The translations under genes and the position numbers were made by a program. From positions 31,835 to 95,834 of the forward strand of contig JARYMM010000006.1 of NCBI GenBank assembly GCA_029907105.1: a DNA stretch of 64,000 bases, given 5' to 3'. Of the stretch, positions 5,171 through 59,749 are shown piece after piece. Every line of letters begins with the position of its first letter. Position 1 is the first letter of the stretch. The DNA comes from Anaerolineae bacterium. Lineage in GTDB: Bacteria > Chloroflexota > Anaerolineae > UBA3071. The notes beneath the pieces are model-generated. The model was not told the origin of the DNA. It saw only the letters and a program-made list of their open reading frames with translations, and ran no database searches.

Positions 5171-5331
5171 GTGCCCGGCAAAGGACGAACGACGAAGAAC
5201 GGATTCGCCGTTCGTCCTTCGTCTTTCGTCGTTGCTCACCAAGCCCCTTCGCCCCGCCTTCGGTTGCAGCCCGGCCGCATGAGGGTCACCGAACCTCATT
5301 CCCCATTCCGCAATCCGCAATCACTTGCCTC

Positions 5332-10460: not shown

Positions 10461-10474
10461 TGTCCGTTAAGCGA

Positions 10475-10506
10475 ACGGGGCGGGGAGTGTTCCCCGCCCC
10501 GTTTTT
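10475..10506 (+). terminator. Rho-independent terminator of the YvcK gene
   Basis: An ACGGGGCGGGGA stem with its complement around a GTG loop, followed by TTTTT. The very GC-rich stem lies 14 bases after the stop codon. Confidence 0.92.
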
Positions 10507-13958: not shown

Positions 13959-13978
13959 GACTCTGGCCCATCGCACTT

Positions 13979-14016
13979 ACCTCAAGGCCCGGCTGGTAAG
14001 GGCCGGGCCTTGAGGT
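13979..14016 (+). terminator. Hairpin after the binding-protein gene
   Basis: Perfect 15-base stem ACCTCAAGGCCCGGC with an eight-base loop, 20 bases after the stop codon, with no T-run. It is more likely an RNA-stabilising or partial-termination hairpin than a full terminator, since the permeases follow on the same strand. Confidence 0.75.
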
Positions 14017-14108
14017 ACTGCACCTTTGCGCCCCCTGCTCCCTTGCGATTTTGCGACCCTGCTCCCGCCGGACAGCCATGTCCTCGGATGGGTATTGGGG
14101 GAGGCGTT

Positions 14109-21380: not shown

Positions 21381-21712
21381 TCTCGCAGAAGTGGCGGCTG
21401 CTGCCAGTATGTCGGAGACACAAGTGCCGCTGGTGGAAATCTTCCCACCTGTGCGGTTGGTAGGTAGAGTAGTAGGACAACTGCGAGCAGTTGTCCTACT
21501 ATTGCTCGCCTCCGGCGGCCGCTCCCTCTGTGCTCCGCGGCAAAAACAGAGCTGGTAGCCAGCAGCGCCCGTCGCAACCGCACAGGTAGCCAACTTTGCC
21601 TGTGAGTTTTGTGGTGTCACAGAGGCAGATTCTTTGGCAAGAGTGGGAGTTACTAAGATGGCTTCTCAGGCAGAGAGAATGAAATCGTCTTCATCGGAGT
21701 GGAGGGATTGGG
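21381..21712. other. Gap with perfect palindrome and possible operator
   Basis: 332 bases without a gene. It holds a perfect 32-base palindrome at 21470-21501 (15-base arms TAGTAGGACAACTGC, two-base loop) and, close to the next start, the sequence ATGAAATCGTCTTCAT (21682-21697), which shares ATCGTYTTCAT with the operator-like site at 11964-11974. No convincing promoter was found. Confidence 0.65.
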
Positions 21713-38938: not shown

Positions 38939-39805
38939 GTGACAACCTATGGAGCCCGGCGTCCCGGCGTCATCAGAACGGCATTGCTCTGGCTGGTCAT
39001 CATCGGAGCCACAGCCTGGCTGGTGTTCCCCTTCTATTGGGCCATCATCACCTCGCTCAAACCGCCAGGGGTCATCCTGACCAAGCCATCGCTCATCCCC
39101 TTCTTGCAGTTCAAACCCACCTTCTACAACTGGCAGATGGAGTTCACCCAGCGGTGGCGGGAGATCAGCCGGGCGCTGAGCAACAGTGTGATTATTTCTG
39201 CAGGAGCCACGCTGGTTTCCATCACCCTGGGCACTCTGGCCGGCTATGGGCTGGCCCGCTTCCGCTTCACCGGCCGGATGCAGAACAAGGACCTGACGCT
39301 CTGGTTCCTGTCGCAACGCTTCCTGCCGCCTATGGTCACCGTGATCCCTTTCTTCCTGGTGATCAAAGCTGTGGGCTTGCTGGATACCCGGTTGGCGTTG
39401 GTTCTGGTCAATACCACGTTCACCATCCCCTTCTCCGTGCTCATCATGCGCGACGTTTTCAAGGAATTGCCGGAGGAGATGGAGGAATCGGCCTGGGTGG
39501 ATGGCGCCTCGCACTTCCAGAGTTTCTGGTACATCGCCTTGCCCCTGGCCGCGCCGGCCATGGCCGCCGCCGCCGTGATCTGCTTTGCCTTCTCCTGGAA
39601 CGAATTCATCTTCGCCCTGTTCCTCACCCTGAAAGCGGCCCAGCCGATCACCGTCGTCATTGCCGGGGTGGAACACACCCAGGGCATCCAGTTCTGGTTC
39701 GTGGCCACGCGCCTCCTGTTCGCCATCATTCCGCCCACGCTGCTGGCGCTGACCGCCCAGCGGTACATCGTGCGCGGCCTGACCTTCGGCGCGGTGAAGG
39801 GGTAG
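38939..39805 (+). CDS. CUT1 sugar ABC permease (MalG-like, second system)
   Basis: 288 residues from a GTG with AGGGAGGTGCC upstream. Membrane segments begin LLWLVIIGATAWLVFPFYWAI; AGYGLARFRFTGR joins directly to LTLWFLSQRFLPPMVTVIPFFLV without the ~50-residue insertion seen at 15242. EAA loop EESAWVDGASHFQSFWYIALPLAAP, terminal RGLTFGAVKG. It completes the second CUT1 system; as in the first, no ATPase gene is linked. Confidence 0.93.
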   Translation: MTTYGARRPGVIRTALLWLVIIGATAWLVFPFYWAIITSLKPPGVILTKPSLIPFLQFKPTFYNWQMEFTQRWREISRALSNSVIISAGATLVSITLGTLAGYGLARFRFTGRMQNKDLTLWFLSQRFLPPMVTVIPFFLVIKAVGLLDTRLALVLVNTTFTIPFSVLIMRDVFKELPEEMEESAWVDGASHFQSFWYIALPLAAPAMAAAAVICFAFSWNEFIFALFLTLKAAQPITVVIAGVEHTQGIQFWFVATRLLFAIIPPTLLALTAQRYIVRGLTFGAVKG

Positions 39806-39814
39806 CGGGATATG

Positions 39815-39845
39815 GTAGGGGGCGCAGCGCCGCTGCGCCCCCTAC
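39815..39845. repeat. Perfect palindromic repeat (GTAGGGGGCGCAGCG)
   Basis: 15-base arms around a single-base loop, 10 bases after the permease stop. A near-identical palindrome lies in frame inside the GH20 gene at 57788-57816. Confidence 0.9.
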
Positions 39846-39866: not shown

Positions 39867-40844
39867 ATGAACCTCGTGGAACAGAAGCCCTTCGACGCCG
39901 TCTGCCTGGGCATCCTCGTCGCCGACATGTTCAGCCCGCCGCTGCCCGAACCGCCCGCTCCAGGCCAGCTCGTCGTGGTGGACGACCTGCCCCTGGATGC
40001 CGGTGGCTGCGCCGTCAACACCGGCGTGTCGCTGACCCGGCTGGGCGCCCGCGTCGCCCTCATCGGCAAGGTGGGCAACGATGTCTTCGGCGACTTCATC
40101 ATCGGCCTGATGAGGGAAAAGGGCCTCGACACCTCCGGCATCCGCCGTTCGGCGACCCTCCCCACTTCCAGGACAATGGTCATCCCCGTGTTCGGCCAGG
40201 ACCGGCGCTTCATCCATACCTTCGGCGCCAACGCCGAGTTGACTCTCGAGGACGTGGACCTGGACCTGGTGGCCAGGGGGAAGGTGCTCTACGTCGGCGG
40301 CTATCTGGGACTGCCCCGCCTGGATCAGGCAGCTCTGGGCGAGCTTTTCGCCTTTGCCCGGGCGCGAGGGGTGCGCACGGTCCTGGATGTCATTGTGCCG
40401 GCGACGGCAAGCTTCAGCCTGGATGATGTCCTTGGCCAGGTGCTGCCCCTCACCGACGTATTTCTGCCCAACGACGACGAAGCTGCCCTGCTCACCGGCG
40501 AAACAGACCCCGAACGCCAGGCGGCGGCCTTCCTCACTCTGGGCTGCGGCACGGCGGTGATCACCCTGGGTGAGCGCGGCGTCCTGGCCAGGACAGCCAC
40601 TCAGACGGTGCAGGCGCCGGCCTTTCCGGTGCACACGGTGGACCCCTCCGGCGCCGGCGATGCTTTCGACGCCGGCTTCATCATCGGCCTGTTGGAGGGC
40701 TGGGATCTGGTCCGGACGGTGGAGTTTGCCTGTGCCATCGGCGCTTCGGCGACGATGAAGCTGGGCTGCACGACAGGTGTGTTCACGCGGGCCGAGGCTC
40801 AGGCCTTCCTGGCCGCGAACAGGTTGCCGATCAGCGTCAGTTAG
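39867..40844 (+). CDS. PfkB-family carbohydrate kinase
   Basis: 325 residues of the ribokinase fold. Substrate-binding region DAGGCAVNTGVSLTRLGARVALIGKVGNDVFGD, then the ATP/anion-hole signature TVDPSGAGDAFDAGFIIGLL with the catalytic Asp of GAGDAF. It phosphorylates a sugar or nucleoside; closest in general pattern to fructokinase/ribokinase-type members. It lies 61 bases after the second CUT1 permease and so probably phosphorylates the imported sugar or its product. A palindromic repeat sits in the gap. Confidence 0.9.
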   Translation: MNLVEQKPFDAVCLGILVADMFSPPLPEPPAPGQLVVVDDLPLDAGGCAVNTGVSLTRLGARVALIGKVGNDVFGDFIIGLMREKGLDTSGIRRSATLPTSRTMVIPVFGQDRRFIHTFGANAELTLEDVDLDLVARGKVLYVGGYLGLPRLDQAALGELFAFARARGVRTVLDVIVPATASFSLDDVLGQVLPLTDVFLPNDDEAALLTGETDPERQAAAFLTLGCGTAVITLGERGVLARTATQTVQAPAFPVHTVDPSGAGDAFDAGFIIGLLEGWDLVRTVEFACAIGASATMKLGCTTGVFTRAEAQAFLAANRLPISVS

Positions 40845-55275: not shown

Positions 55276-55313
55276 GAGACTGCGAACCCTCGCCGTCGGG
55301 GGTTCGCAGTCTC
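55276..55313 (+). terminator. Hairpin after the Opp-type binding-protein gene
   Basis: Perfect 14-base stem GAGACTGCGAACCC with a 10-base loop, 39 bases after the stop codon; followed by TTACTG rather than a T-run. It may be a weak terminator or an mRNA-stabilising structure. Confidence 0.8.
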
Positions 55314-56393: not shown

Positions 56394-57653
56394 ATGAGAG
56401 AAAGCAGGCGCTGGGCAACGTCCATCCGCATCCTGAGCCGACCCGTGGCGCTGTTGCTGCTCGTGCAACTGCTCAGCGGTGTCGTGCTCTCCCCCCAGAG
56501 GTCCTTCTTCCCCATCTACCTGGAGGAGCAACTGCGCTACGCCGCGGTCTTCATCTCCGCCTTTGTGGCCATGGGACAGTTGCTGGGCATGGTGGCCTCG
56601 GTGATCGGCGGGGCGCTGTGCGATGCCGTGGGGCGCAAGTGGACGCTCGTGCTGGGGCTTATCGGCTTTGTCTTTGGCGGCCTGGTGTACGTGGCACGAG
56701 CGCCCTGGCTGGTGGCCCTGTTCTGGGCCCTCGGCGGCCTGGGGCTGGGCTTCCACACCCTGGGCGGGCAGGGTGTCCTGATTGACACCGCCAACCCGCA
56801 GCGCCTGGGAGTGCTATCGGCCTTCTACCACTGGGGGTTCACCCTCGGCGGCGCCCTGAGCAGCCCTGCCGCAGGGCTCATCCTGGATCAGCAGGGGTTC
56901 GGGGTGTTCGGCCTGACGCTGGCCCTCATCTCCCTGGCCACCGTACTGGGGACGATGGCCCTCTTGCCATCCGACACCCCTCACCCCAACCCCTCTCCCA
57001 TTGGGAGAGGGGCAGGGGTGAGGGTAGAGAGGGGCATGTCGAACCGGTCGCTGTTCGGCTACGGGGAGATCGTCCGCCGCCCGGCGGTGATCACGCTGGG
57101 ACTGGTGCGCTTCCTGCCCACCTGCTACTACGGCATGGCCAGCGTGTTGAATCCCTTGCTGATCAACCGCCTGGCCGGCAGCAAGACGGCGGTGGCCCTC
57201 TACACCACGAGCAGCCTGGTCGTGGCTACCCTGGCCCAGGTGGTGGCCGGCCGGGCCGCCGACCGCTGGGGACGGCGCTGGCCGACCCTGGTCTCCTTCG
57301 GGGCGTTGATCTTCTCGGCCATCGGCCAGGCGGCTTCGGCCACCCACCTGTGGAGTTTCTACACCTTTGGCGTGCTGGGGATCTCCGCCGCCTGGTCACT
57401 GGCCACATTGCTGCCCTGTCTGGTAGCCGACGCCGCGGCCGTCGAGGAGCGCGGCCGCGTATTGGGGATGCTGAACCTGGTATGGAACGTCGGCATGATG
57501 GTCGGCCCCCTCATCGGCGGCGCGCTGCTGGAAGTGGCCACAGGCTGGCCCTTCCTCGTCGCCGCTTTGTTGAACCTGGGCGCCATCGCCGCCGCGCTCT
57601 CCTTCTTCCGCCTGCTGACCAATTTGCCAGTTTACCAAGTTACCGATTCCTGA
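56394..57653 (+). CDS. MFS transporter with an in-frame palindromic repeat
   Basis: 419 residues, 12 predicted membrane segments in two halves. MFS motif A-like loops are GGALCDAVGRKWTLVLGL after TM2 and AGRAADRWGRRWPTLVSFG in the second half. Between TM6 and TM7 the central loop contains DTPHPNPSPIGRGAGVRVERG, encoded by a 47-base palindromic repeat (56978-57024). Because this is a cytoplasmic loop of variable length the protein may still work. Substrate unknown; context suggests a sugar, amino sugar or drug. It is followed by GH20 after 17 bases. Confidence 0.88.
   Translation: MRESRRWATSIRILSRPVALLLLVQLLSGVVLSPQRSFFPIYLEEQLRYAAVFISAFVAMGQLLGMVASVIGGALCDAVGRKWTLVLGLIGFVFGGLVYVARAPWLVALFWALGGLGLGFHTLGGQGVLIDTANPQRLGVLSAFYHWGFTLGGALSSPAAGLILDQQGFGVFGLTLALISLATVLGTMALLPSDTPHPNPSPIGRGAGVRVERGMSNRSLFGYGEIVRRPAVITLGLVRFLPTCYYGMASVLNPLLINRLAGSKTAVALYTTSSLVVATLAQVVAGRAADRWGRRWPTLVSFGALIFSAIGQAASATHLWSFYTFGVLGISAAWSLATLLPCLVADAAAVEERGRVLGMLNLVWNVGMMVGPLIGGALLEVATGWPFLVAALLNLGAIAAALSFFRLLTNLPVYQVTDS
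56978..57024. repeat. Palindromic repeat inside the MFS gene
   Basis: 22-base arms (CCCTCACCCCAACCCCTCTCCC and its complement with two central mismatches) around ATT; length and phase keep the reading frame open. The family type is familiar from many bacterial genomes. Confidence 0.9.
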
Positions 57654-57670: not shown

Positions 57671-59749
57671 ATGACTGAAAACGCACTCCTGCACCTGCTC
57701 CCGCGACCGAAAGAGCTTGTCCTTCAGGCGGGCAGCTTCGAGATGGACGACGACACGCTGATCCTGCTGCCGGCCACGCCGGGCGACGTAGGGGCGCAGC
57801 GTGGCTGCGCCCCCACCGACAGCCTCTTCTGCGCTGCCCAGCAGCTCAAGGAGGAGATCGGCCGGGCCACCGGCGTCGCCGTGGACATCGTCAAGCGCTT
57901 TCGCCCGCACCGGACAGACAATGTCATCCTGCTCATCTGCGGCCAGGAGCAGGCGGCAGCCTTCGGCGTCGAGCCGCTGCGCACCGCCGCTCCCGAGGCT
58001 GTGGCCGACCAGTCCTATGCCCTGACCATCACGCCGCAGGCCGTCACCCTCTACGCCGGGTGCCCCACCGGCCTCTTCTACGCCGTGCAAACCCTGCGCC
58101 AGGTGGTGCGGCTGAGCGAGGATCGCCTTCCGGCGCTGACCATCCGCGACTGGCCGACGCTGCGCTACCGTGGGCTGATGCTGGACATCTCCCGGCGCAA
58201 GGTGCCCACCCTGAAGACGCTGAAAGAGCTGGCCGAGGTGCTCAGCGCCTACAAGCTCAACGTGCTGCAACTTTATACCGAGCACACCTTCCAGTTCGCC
58301 CGCCATCCGCAGATCGGCGCCGGCTGCGGCTCGCTCTCCAGCGAGGACATCGTGGCCCTGGACGAGCACTGCCGCCGCCTGCACGTGGAACTGATGCCCA
58401 ACCTGCAATCCTTTGGCCACTTCCACAACACGCTGATCCTGCCCGAATACCAGCACCTGGCGGAGACGGATGTCCGGTGGACGCTCAGCCCGGCCTTCGA
58501 GGAGAGCTACACCCTGCTCGACGAGCTGTACGGCGATATGCTGCCTTCGTTCACCTCCACCACCTTCAACGTGGACTGCGACGAGACATATGACCTGGGC
58601 CGCGGGGCCAGCAAAGCGCAGGCCGAGGAAATCGGCGTCGGGCGGGTCTACCTCAACCACATCCTGCGCGTGCGCGAACTGGCCGCCCGCTACGGGCGAC
58701 GCATCCAGGTCTGGGGCGACATCCTGCTGCACCACCCGGAGCTGATCGCCGAATTGCCGGAGGATGTGACGCTGCTGGACTGGCACTACGAGGCCGCCGA
58801 CGAGTACCCCACCGCCCGCACCTTCGGCGCATCCGGGCGCCCCTTCTGGGTCTGCCCTGGCGTCTCCTCGTGGAACACCCTCTTCCCGCGCCTGCACAAC
58901 GCCAACGTCAACATCCGCAACTTCGTGCGCGATGGCGTGGCGGCCGGCGCCCAGGGCATGCTCAACACCGACTGGGGCGACTACGGCCACTACCAGCCGC
59001 TGGGGCTGAGCTGGTATGGCTATCTCTTCGGCGCTGCCCAGGCCTGGACCGGCGGGACGACGAGCGATGAGGAGTTCGAGGCCGCTTTTGGCCCGCTCTT
59101 CCTCGGCCCCGAGCACGAGGTCATCCTGGACGCCATGCACAGGCTGGCGCGCACCAACACCCTGCCCGGCGTGGGGCAGTTCAACCGCTCGCATACCGTC
59201 CTGGCCCTCTTCGACGAGCCGCTGACCGGCGAGACGGTCACGGGGTTGCCGGCGGAGACGCTGTCCGAGATGCTCGCCCTGGCCGAGGAGGCGGCGGTCA
59301 CCTTCGAGATCATCGCCCCCGATCACCCGCGGCCGCTGACCCTGTACGAGATGGCCTCCGTCGCCCACCTCACCGCTTACGCCGCCCGCAAGGTGGCCCT
59401 GGCCCAGGAGATCCGCCAGGGGCTGCGCGATGCACATGTGGACGCCGACCGTATCCACGGCTACATCCTGGGCCTGCAGGCGCTGGACGCCGAGCTGGAG
59501 GAGTTGCGGGCGGAGTTCGAGGTGCTGTGGCTGGCCCGCGCTCAGCGCAGCGAGATACACGTGGCCCTGGGCTACTTCGCCAACCTGCGCGCCCGCTACC
59601 GGGCGGCCATCCTCTGGCTGGAGCAGCAGCGCCAGGCGCTGTTGCAGGGTCGGCCTGTGGATGCCGAACTGAGGACCTACAACCCCGGCGACTACGCCGT
59701 CCTCTGGCAGGAGGCGGAGCGCTTCTTCAAGCAACTGGGCATCTTGTAG
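57671..59749 (+). CDS. Glycoside hydrolase family 20 (beta-N-acetylhexosaminidase-like)
   Basis: 692 residues from the ATG at 57671 (CCGGAGGAC upstream; the track ORF start 57350 is inside the MFS gene). An N-terminal GH20b-type domain (AAQQLKEEIGRATG, SYALTITPQAVTLYA) precedes the barrel: RYRGLMLDISRRKVPTLKTLKEL, LMPNLQSFGHF, and the catalytic pair D304-E305 in FNVDCDETYDLG, with TDWGDYGHYQP later. No signal peptide, so it would act inside the cell on imported oligosaccharides. Residues 40-49 (VGAQRGCAPT) are encoded by a palindromic repeat that also occurs between genes at 39815. Confidence 0.87.
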   Translation: MTENALLHLLPRPKELVLQAGSFEMDDDTLILLPATPGDVGAQRGCAPTDSLFCAAQQLKEEIGRATGVAVDIVKRFRPHRTDNVILLICGQEQAAAFGVEPLRTAAPEAVADQSYALTITPQAVTLYAGCPTGLFYAVQTLRQVVRLSEDRLPALTIRDWPTLRYRGLMLDISRRKVPTLKTLKELAEVLSAYKLNVLQLYTEHTFQFARHPQIGAGCGSLSSEDIVALDEHCRRLHVELMPNLQSFGHFHNTLILPEYQHLAETDVRWTLSPAFEESYTLLDELYGDMLPSFTSTTFNVDCDETYDLGRGASKAQAEEIGVGRVYLNHILRVRELAARYGRRIQVWGDILLHHPELIAELPEDVTLLDWHYEAADEYPTARTFGASGRPFWVCPGVSSWNTLFPRLHNANVNIRNFVRDGVAAGAQGMLNTDWGDYGHYQPLGLSWYGYLFGAAQAWTGGTTSDEEFEAAFGPLFLGPEHEVILDAMHRLARTNTLPGVGQFNRSHTVLALFDEPLTGETVTGLPAETLSEMLALAEEAAVTFEIIAPDHPRPLTLYEMASVAHLTAYAARKVALAQEIRQGLRDAHVDADRIHGYILGLQALDAELEELRAEFEVLWLARAQRSEIHVALGYFANLRARYRAAILWLEQQRQALLQGRPVDAELRTYNPGDYAVLWQEAERFFKQLGIL
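57788..57816. repeat. Palindromic repeat inside the GH20 gene
   Basis: GTAGGGGCGCAGC-GTG-GCTGCGCCCCCAC, in frame near the GH20 N terminus; same family as the intergenic palindrome at 39815-39845. Confidence 0.88.

Follow-up and report, generated by a model that had tools for sequence, protein, structure and literature searches.

A palindrome of 29 bp that lies in frame within a GH20 (beta-hexosaminidase-like) gene of an Anaerolineae (Chloroflexota) bacterium is very probably a GTAG-tagged REP that inserted there, most likely through a RAYT transposase, with selection keeping those in-gene insertions that are stop-free and preserve the frame. Other bacteria have already provided elements of this type, occasionally within genes, and the Anaerolineae case is a well-supported, clear new example. 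What is added here is the Anaerolineae family itself, the large share of its copies that resides in genes, the empty sites in orthologues and the frame statistics. The stretch of DNA analysed (the window) comprises 64,000 nucleotides, and searches were extended to the whole genome, a 3.78 Mb draft in 133 contigs. The main features of the window are collected in Table 1.

Table 1. Coordinates of the two palindrome copies in the window and of their surroundings
Feature	Position	Strand	Basis
GH20 (beta-hexosaminidase-like) gene, 692 aa	57671..59749	+	Pfam domains, translation
GTAG-type palindrome, 29 bp, phase 0, codons 40-49 (VGAQRGCAPT)	57788..57816	+	sequence and translation
CGAC, left flank of the GH20 palindrome	57784..57787	+	sequence
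CGAC, right flank of the GH20 palindrome	57817..57820	+	sequence
Perfect 31-bp family copy, intergenic	39815..39845	.	sequence; gene calling
Permease-type gene, ending just before the intergenic copy	38939..39805	+	ORF list; assignment by reading the sequence
PfkB-like sugar kinase gene, starting just after the intergenic copy	39867..40844	+	ORF list; assignment by reading the sequence

The GH20 palindrome and its empty sites

Translation from the ATG at 57671 agrees with the first-pass annotation, which had the palindrome encode ten residues of the GH20 protein. The sequence reads GTAGGGGCGCAGC-GTG-GCTGCGCCCCCAC, with two 13-nt arms (57788-57800 and 57804-57816) that pair with one mismatch around the 3-nt loop GTG, giving a hairpin of -22.3 kcal/mol. 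The consensus end CCT ACC of the family is CCC ACC in this copy, a change that would be synonymous for proline. The copy is the sole match to the 29-bp family pattern in the window, for which 0.05 matches are expected by shuffling.

The GH20 protein contains the Pfam domains PF02838 (residues 9-161) and PF00728 (residues 165-377). An AlphaFold model based on an alignment of 20 sequences has a mean pLDDT of 89.9; within its N-terminal GH20b domain, residues 40-48, between a strand (30-34) and a helix (49-67), fall below 50. The model places the insert in this predicted strand-helix loop, which is its sole long internal segment of low confidence.

A native peptide would be expected throughout the GH20 orthologues, as the first-pass annotation had pointed out; VGAQRGCAPT is present in 0 of the 9 orthologues spanning the N-terminus, and the insertion reading stands. 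The three closest orthologues (L078, L079 and L080; 68-69% identity) are shorter by exactly 11 residues (33 bp), reading ...PAQAGDGAFFAARQL at the place where the studied protein reads ...PATPGDVGAQRGCAPTDSLFCAAQQL. The L078 locus is a true counterpart, since the neighbouring MFS gene is conserved there just upstream of GH20. The CGAC tetranucleotides on both sides of the palindrome could represent a 4-bp target duplication, with 29 + 4 = 33 bp, but this is only suggestive because flanking duplications over all copies of the family are not significant (see below).

A dispersed family of GTAG-ended palindromes

The second copy in the window had been described as a perfect intergenic palindrome, and it does consist of two 15-nt arms with 100% complementarity, separated by 1 nt. 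It is situated approximately 10 bp past the permease stop codon and 21 bp ahead of the next ATG. The further claim that the same palindrome occurs at both sites holds for the family but not for the exact sequence: five G's and five C's are present in the intergenic copy (GTAGGGGGCGCAGC), compared to four G's in the left arm of the GH20 copy. The two copies thus differ by one G:C stem pair and are relatives rather than identical copies. That one family inhabits both coding and non-coding DNA is supported by the approximately 55 copies in the genome and by the empty sites in orthologues.

In the genome-wide palindrome search that the first-pass annotation had called for, the 29-bp pattern with at most 3 mismatches was found at 14 sites, compared to 1 for the reversed control, and the 28-bp pattern under the same threshold at 32 sites compared to 2. 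A looser palindrome search gave 76 matches compared to 23 for the control. The non-redundant set comprises 55 copies of 27-31 bp, dispersed over this one genome. Their terminal motif is fixed (GTAGGGGCG...CGCCCCTAC, with GTAGGGGC as the common end), and subfamilies are split by the inner stem, which is CACGG, CAAGG, GGTCT, CAGCG or GGACG. A literature search with GTAGGGGC returned unrelated primers only. The tetranucleotide GTAG is present at one end only in 34 copies, at both ends in 15 and at neither in 6, so that 49 of the 55 have at least one such end, and the terminal 4 bases are fully paired in 17 of the 55. The search pattern left the inner stem bases unconstrained, yet these pair in 94 of 105 cells for the 28-mers and in 54 of 60 for the 29-mers, compared to about 44 and 30 after shuffling. 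Pairing so far above the shuffled level indicates that the hairpin is conserved as a structure.

Among 150 genomes of the class, 87 contain the strict motif GTAGGGGCG(N4-14)CGCCCCTAC, with a maximum of 90 copies and near-zero control matches. Flanking duplications of at least 4 bp over all copies of the family number 2, compared to 0.5 expected (p ~0.1), and general target-site duplication was accordingly rejected as not significant; an in-gene copy (L002:1377) has a 5-bp GGCCA duplication at its flanks. Another copy (L098:1501-1528) sits within a longer inverted repeat (GTAAACGAAGCA ... TGCTTCGTTTAC) and resembles REPs that have been described within target palindromes.

Copies inside genes and their reading frames

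Ab initio gene calls made in this analysis, using codon scores trained on the window, place 27 of the 55 copies within genes, 25 in intergenic DNA and 3 at gene ends. Called coding sequence makes up 87% of the sampled DNA, as measured on single stretches around the copy sites, and random placement would put about 48 copies in genes. Genes are therefore under-represented but not avoided, a pattern that the loss of most in-gene insertions would produce. An earlier coding test, which asked for a good codon score over 300 nt to either side (19 of 52 copies compared to 43% of random windows), was too strict near gene ends; it was dropped and replaced by the gene calls.

The other hosts are diverse and include genes for an HdrA-like protein, an MFS protein, an ABC-2 permease, PrmC, an ARMT1-like phosphatase, NRPS (three sites), a peptidase T-like protein, MurB, a TPR protein, a MASE1 histidine kinase, SNF2 and an SDR. 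All 29 relatives with which the peptidase was compared are without 5 residues (15 nt) at the insert; one of them, a member of the same family, is 83% identical. The HdrA-like insert is found in no relative compared and amounts to a net +15 nt relative to the closest one, from genome G001. Opposite the SDR insert, the best PDB homologue has a gap of 8 residues. The MurB insert likewise falls in a gap and is missing from homologues of known structure, and the PrmC insert lies in an unaligned gap relative to HemK structures. Net length changes thus vary by site (33, 15, 15 and about 24 nt), which rules out a uniform insertion length and points to no single insertion rule. In addition to its palindrome peptide GRGARPCAPT, MurB (gene L101:831-2018) has a second insert-like stretch, GRFRISNFEFPSCLLHPASCV, that is also missing from the MurB homologues of known structure.

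The three copies at gene ends (L005:1498, L034:1501 and L037:1501) overlap the end of the gene by 1-2 bases, and GTAG provides the TAG stop; at L005 and L034, another gene begins right after it. Within genes, the 23 copies scored for phase are distributed as 9, 4 and 10 over the three phases. In the phase where GTAG would yield a TAG stop, 0 of 10 copies start with TAG and six start with GGAG, while TAG is found at 45 of 64 ends (70%) of the other copies (p = 3e-5) and in 8 of 13 copies in the other two phases (p = 0.003). Since an open frame helped to define most of these coding calls, TAG is in part missing by definition. Independent evidence for selection on frame and stop codons comes from the GGAG ends, seen in 6 of 10 copies in the stop-prone phase compared to 1 of 64 elsewhere.

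A RAYT (REP-associated tyrosine, HUH) transposase would most likely move the copies in the form of single-stranded hairpins and insert them into both genes and intergenic DNA. Survival within a gene would then need a net length change that is a multiple of three and a frame without stop codons; most subfamilies are open in two of their three frames, the third containing the TAG of GTAG. It would also need the new peptide of about 10 residues to fall in a tolerant loop, and the effect on the GH20 protein would presumably be close to neutral.

RAYT genes, rival explanations and related systems

The RAYT-family model NF047646 matches genes on contigs C58 (E = 8.9e-18), C94 (E = 6e-18) and C71 (E = 9.8e-20 in the genome scan). 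All three score below the curated cut-off of the model (C58 and C94 reach 64.6 and 65.1 in direct tests, compared to 80 bits), which also matches in genomes without such REPs. In this genome, Pfam Y1_Tnp detects C94 only and misses C58, whereas NCBIfam detects both. Three palindromes lie immediately upstream of the C58 RAYT-like gene (L117:2-739, equivalent to G000:C58:2610-3347), and a further copy of the family sits in frame within the gene, encoding AHGRTPSAPT just past the HxH motif; by sequence, no homologue of known structure was found for the C58 protein. The C71 gene is adjoined by GTAGGGCAAC-type palindromes, which form another subfamily. Within the class, palindromes occur in 75 of 114 genomes with a RAYT-family gene compared to 12 of 36 without (p = 0.0009, with no phylogenetic correction). 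These 12 genomes, among them G026 with 36 palindromes, may be incomplete, may contain a missed RAYT or may use another mobiliser. Little turned up when GTAG palindromes were sought under strict criteria next to the RAYT genes of other genomes. At REP hairpins, TnpA-REP (RAYT) relies on GTAG to determine where it cleaves (PMC8266576). Judging from these sequence associations, a RAYT is the likely mobiliser of the family, with room left for replacement-type events because net lengths vary.

That the GH20 sequence is native and only resembles the palindrome by chance has practically no credibility left. In its favour, hairpins are common in GC-rich coding DNA, to which this region belongs, and simulated windows yield 0-3 palindromes with such an arm length. 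However, this does not account for a family-consensus match where 0.05 are expected in the window, for nine GH20 orthologues without the residues, or for related in-frame palindromes in 26 other genes; orthologue comparison and genome-wide counts together rule out a chance resemblance. It is also very improbable that in-gene copies are retained for a function of the peptide or the RNA hairpin in their hosts, for example in mRNA stability. The number of copies in genes and the strength of the hairpins, including that of GH20, would suit such a role, but the hosts are unrelated (GH20, HdrA-like, NRPS, SDR, MurB, PrmC, SNF2 and others), the three frames give three different peptides, the inserts are restricted to the lineage, and far fewer copies lie in genes than the share of genes in the DNA would predict.

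The remaining alternatives concern the agent. MITE-like elements moved by a DDE transposase with target duplication, instead of RAYT-mobilised REPs, would explain the CGAC on both sides of the GH20 copy and the GGCCA at L002:1377. This is unlikely, as flanking duplications across copies are no more common than in shuffled sequence and the elements, at just 27-31 bp with a conserved GTAG terminus, are typical of REPs; an unsystematic look met no DDE element with such ends. Spread by homology, through gene conversion or hairpin template switching with the RAYT genes as bystanders, is a rather doubtful possibility. It draws on the peptidase and HdrA-like genes, where a gain of 15 nt is accompanied by loss of host bases and the host bases match the element end, in a replacement-like manner. 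In contrast, the difference at the GH20 site can be read as 33 nt simply added, palindromes and RAYTs tend to occur in the same genomes of the class, and palindromes are found at a RAYT gene, all of which favours mobilisation by a RAYT.

GTAG-REPs were defined by Di Nocera et al. (2013; PMC3733652) as carrying an unpaired tag at one end, with most REPs being intergenic. The study includes one Chloroflexota family, GTAG-23 of Thermomicrobium roseum, reports REPs inside ORFs, mostly in Opitutus terrae, and notes that GTAG often provides the TAG stops of flanking ORFs. The Anaerolineae palindromes share with these elements a size of 20-40 bp (here 27-31 bp) with GTAG ends, complementary stem changes, occurrence in Chloroflexota, copies within ORFs, the supply of TAG stops and, probably, repeat-flanked RAYT genes. 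They differ in that the subfamilies are new, GTAG is found on both strands in 15 of 55 copies (on one only in 34), and about half of the copies are located in genes. The predicted RAYT gene on C58 resembles REPtrons (PMC2817692, PMC8266576), in which a RAYT-family gene has adjacent palindromes and GTAG is the cleavage guide, but unlike these it contains an in-frame palindrome within its own sequence in addition to the three upstream copies.

Rickettsia palindromic elements (RPEs) are described in PMC3733652 as in-frame insertions in ORFs of unrelated, likely functional proteins, with the intragenic repeats of R. conorii being either members of the CGTC superfamily (RPE-4, RPE-6) or longer RPE-1 elements. 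As far as that description goes, the GH20, peptidase and HdrA-like genes are comparable in having an in-frame insertion missing from orthologues, while the Anaerolineae family, GTAG-type and 27-31 bp long, is set apart from RPEs on the basis of the literature description. The enterobacterial RU-1, RU-2 and RU-3 (PMC2759123) are likewise small mobile repeats that became in-frame parts of proteins, but are 103-168 bp long, MITE-like and unrelated in sequence.

The empty sites in orthologues document that numerous unrelated proteins of a free-living bacterium can receive short peptides from a REP family, as happens with RPEs in Rickettsia. With 27 in-gene copies, and a motif shared by more than half of the genomes sampled in the class, the family is a well-populated system for measuring insertion tolerance and the role of RAYTs. 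For annotation, peptides such as VGAHGRAPL, GRGARPCAP and EGRSDAAPL in Chloroflexota proteins should be regarded as repeat-derived. A bolder, speculative and rather unlikely reading is that Anaerolineae GTAG-REPs are not extragenic in behaviour: they would enter genes frequently and form a regular source of loop insertions of 5-11 residues, with a stop-poor sequence in all three frames and perhaps an insertion route that tends towards net changes in multiples of three.

Other palindromes are present in the window as well. The MFS gene upstream of GH20 (56394-57653, + strand) contains at 56978-57024 a palindrome of another family, CCCTCACCCCAACCCCTCTCCC...GGGAGAGGGGCAGGGGTGAGGG, which has few other copies in the genome; it is in frame and encodes PHPNPSPIGRGAGVRVERG, and at this site 11 residues fewer are present in the syntenic orthologue of L078. 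At 21470-21501, a perfect GTAG-tagged palindrome, TAGTAGGACAACTGC..GCAGTTGTCCTACTA, resembles the GTAGGGCAAC-type repeats beside the RAYT gene on C71. Further perfect or near-perfect palindromes of unrelated families, such as GTCATTGCGAGCCCC..GGGGCTCGCAGTGAC, are located at 1564-1596, 5181-5233, 10474-10503, 13978-14017 and 55276-55313.
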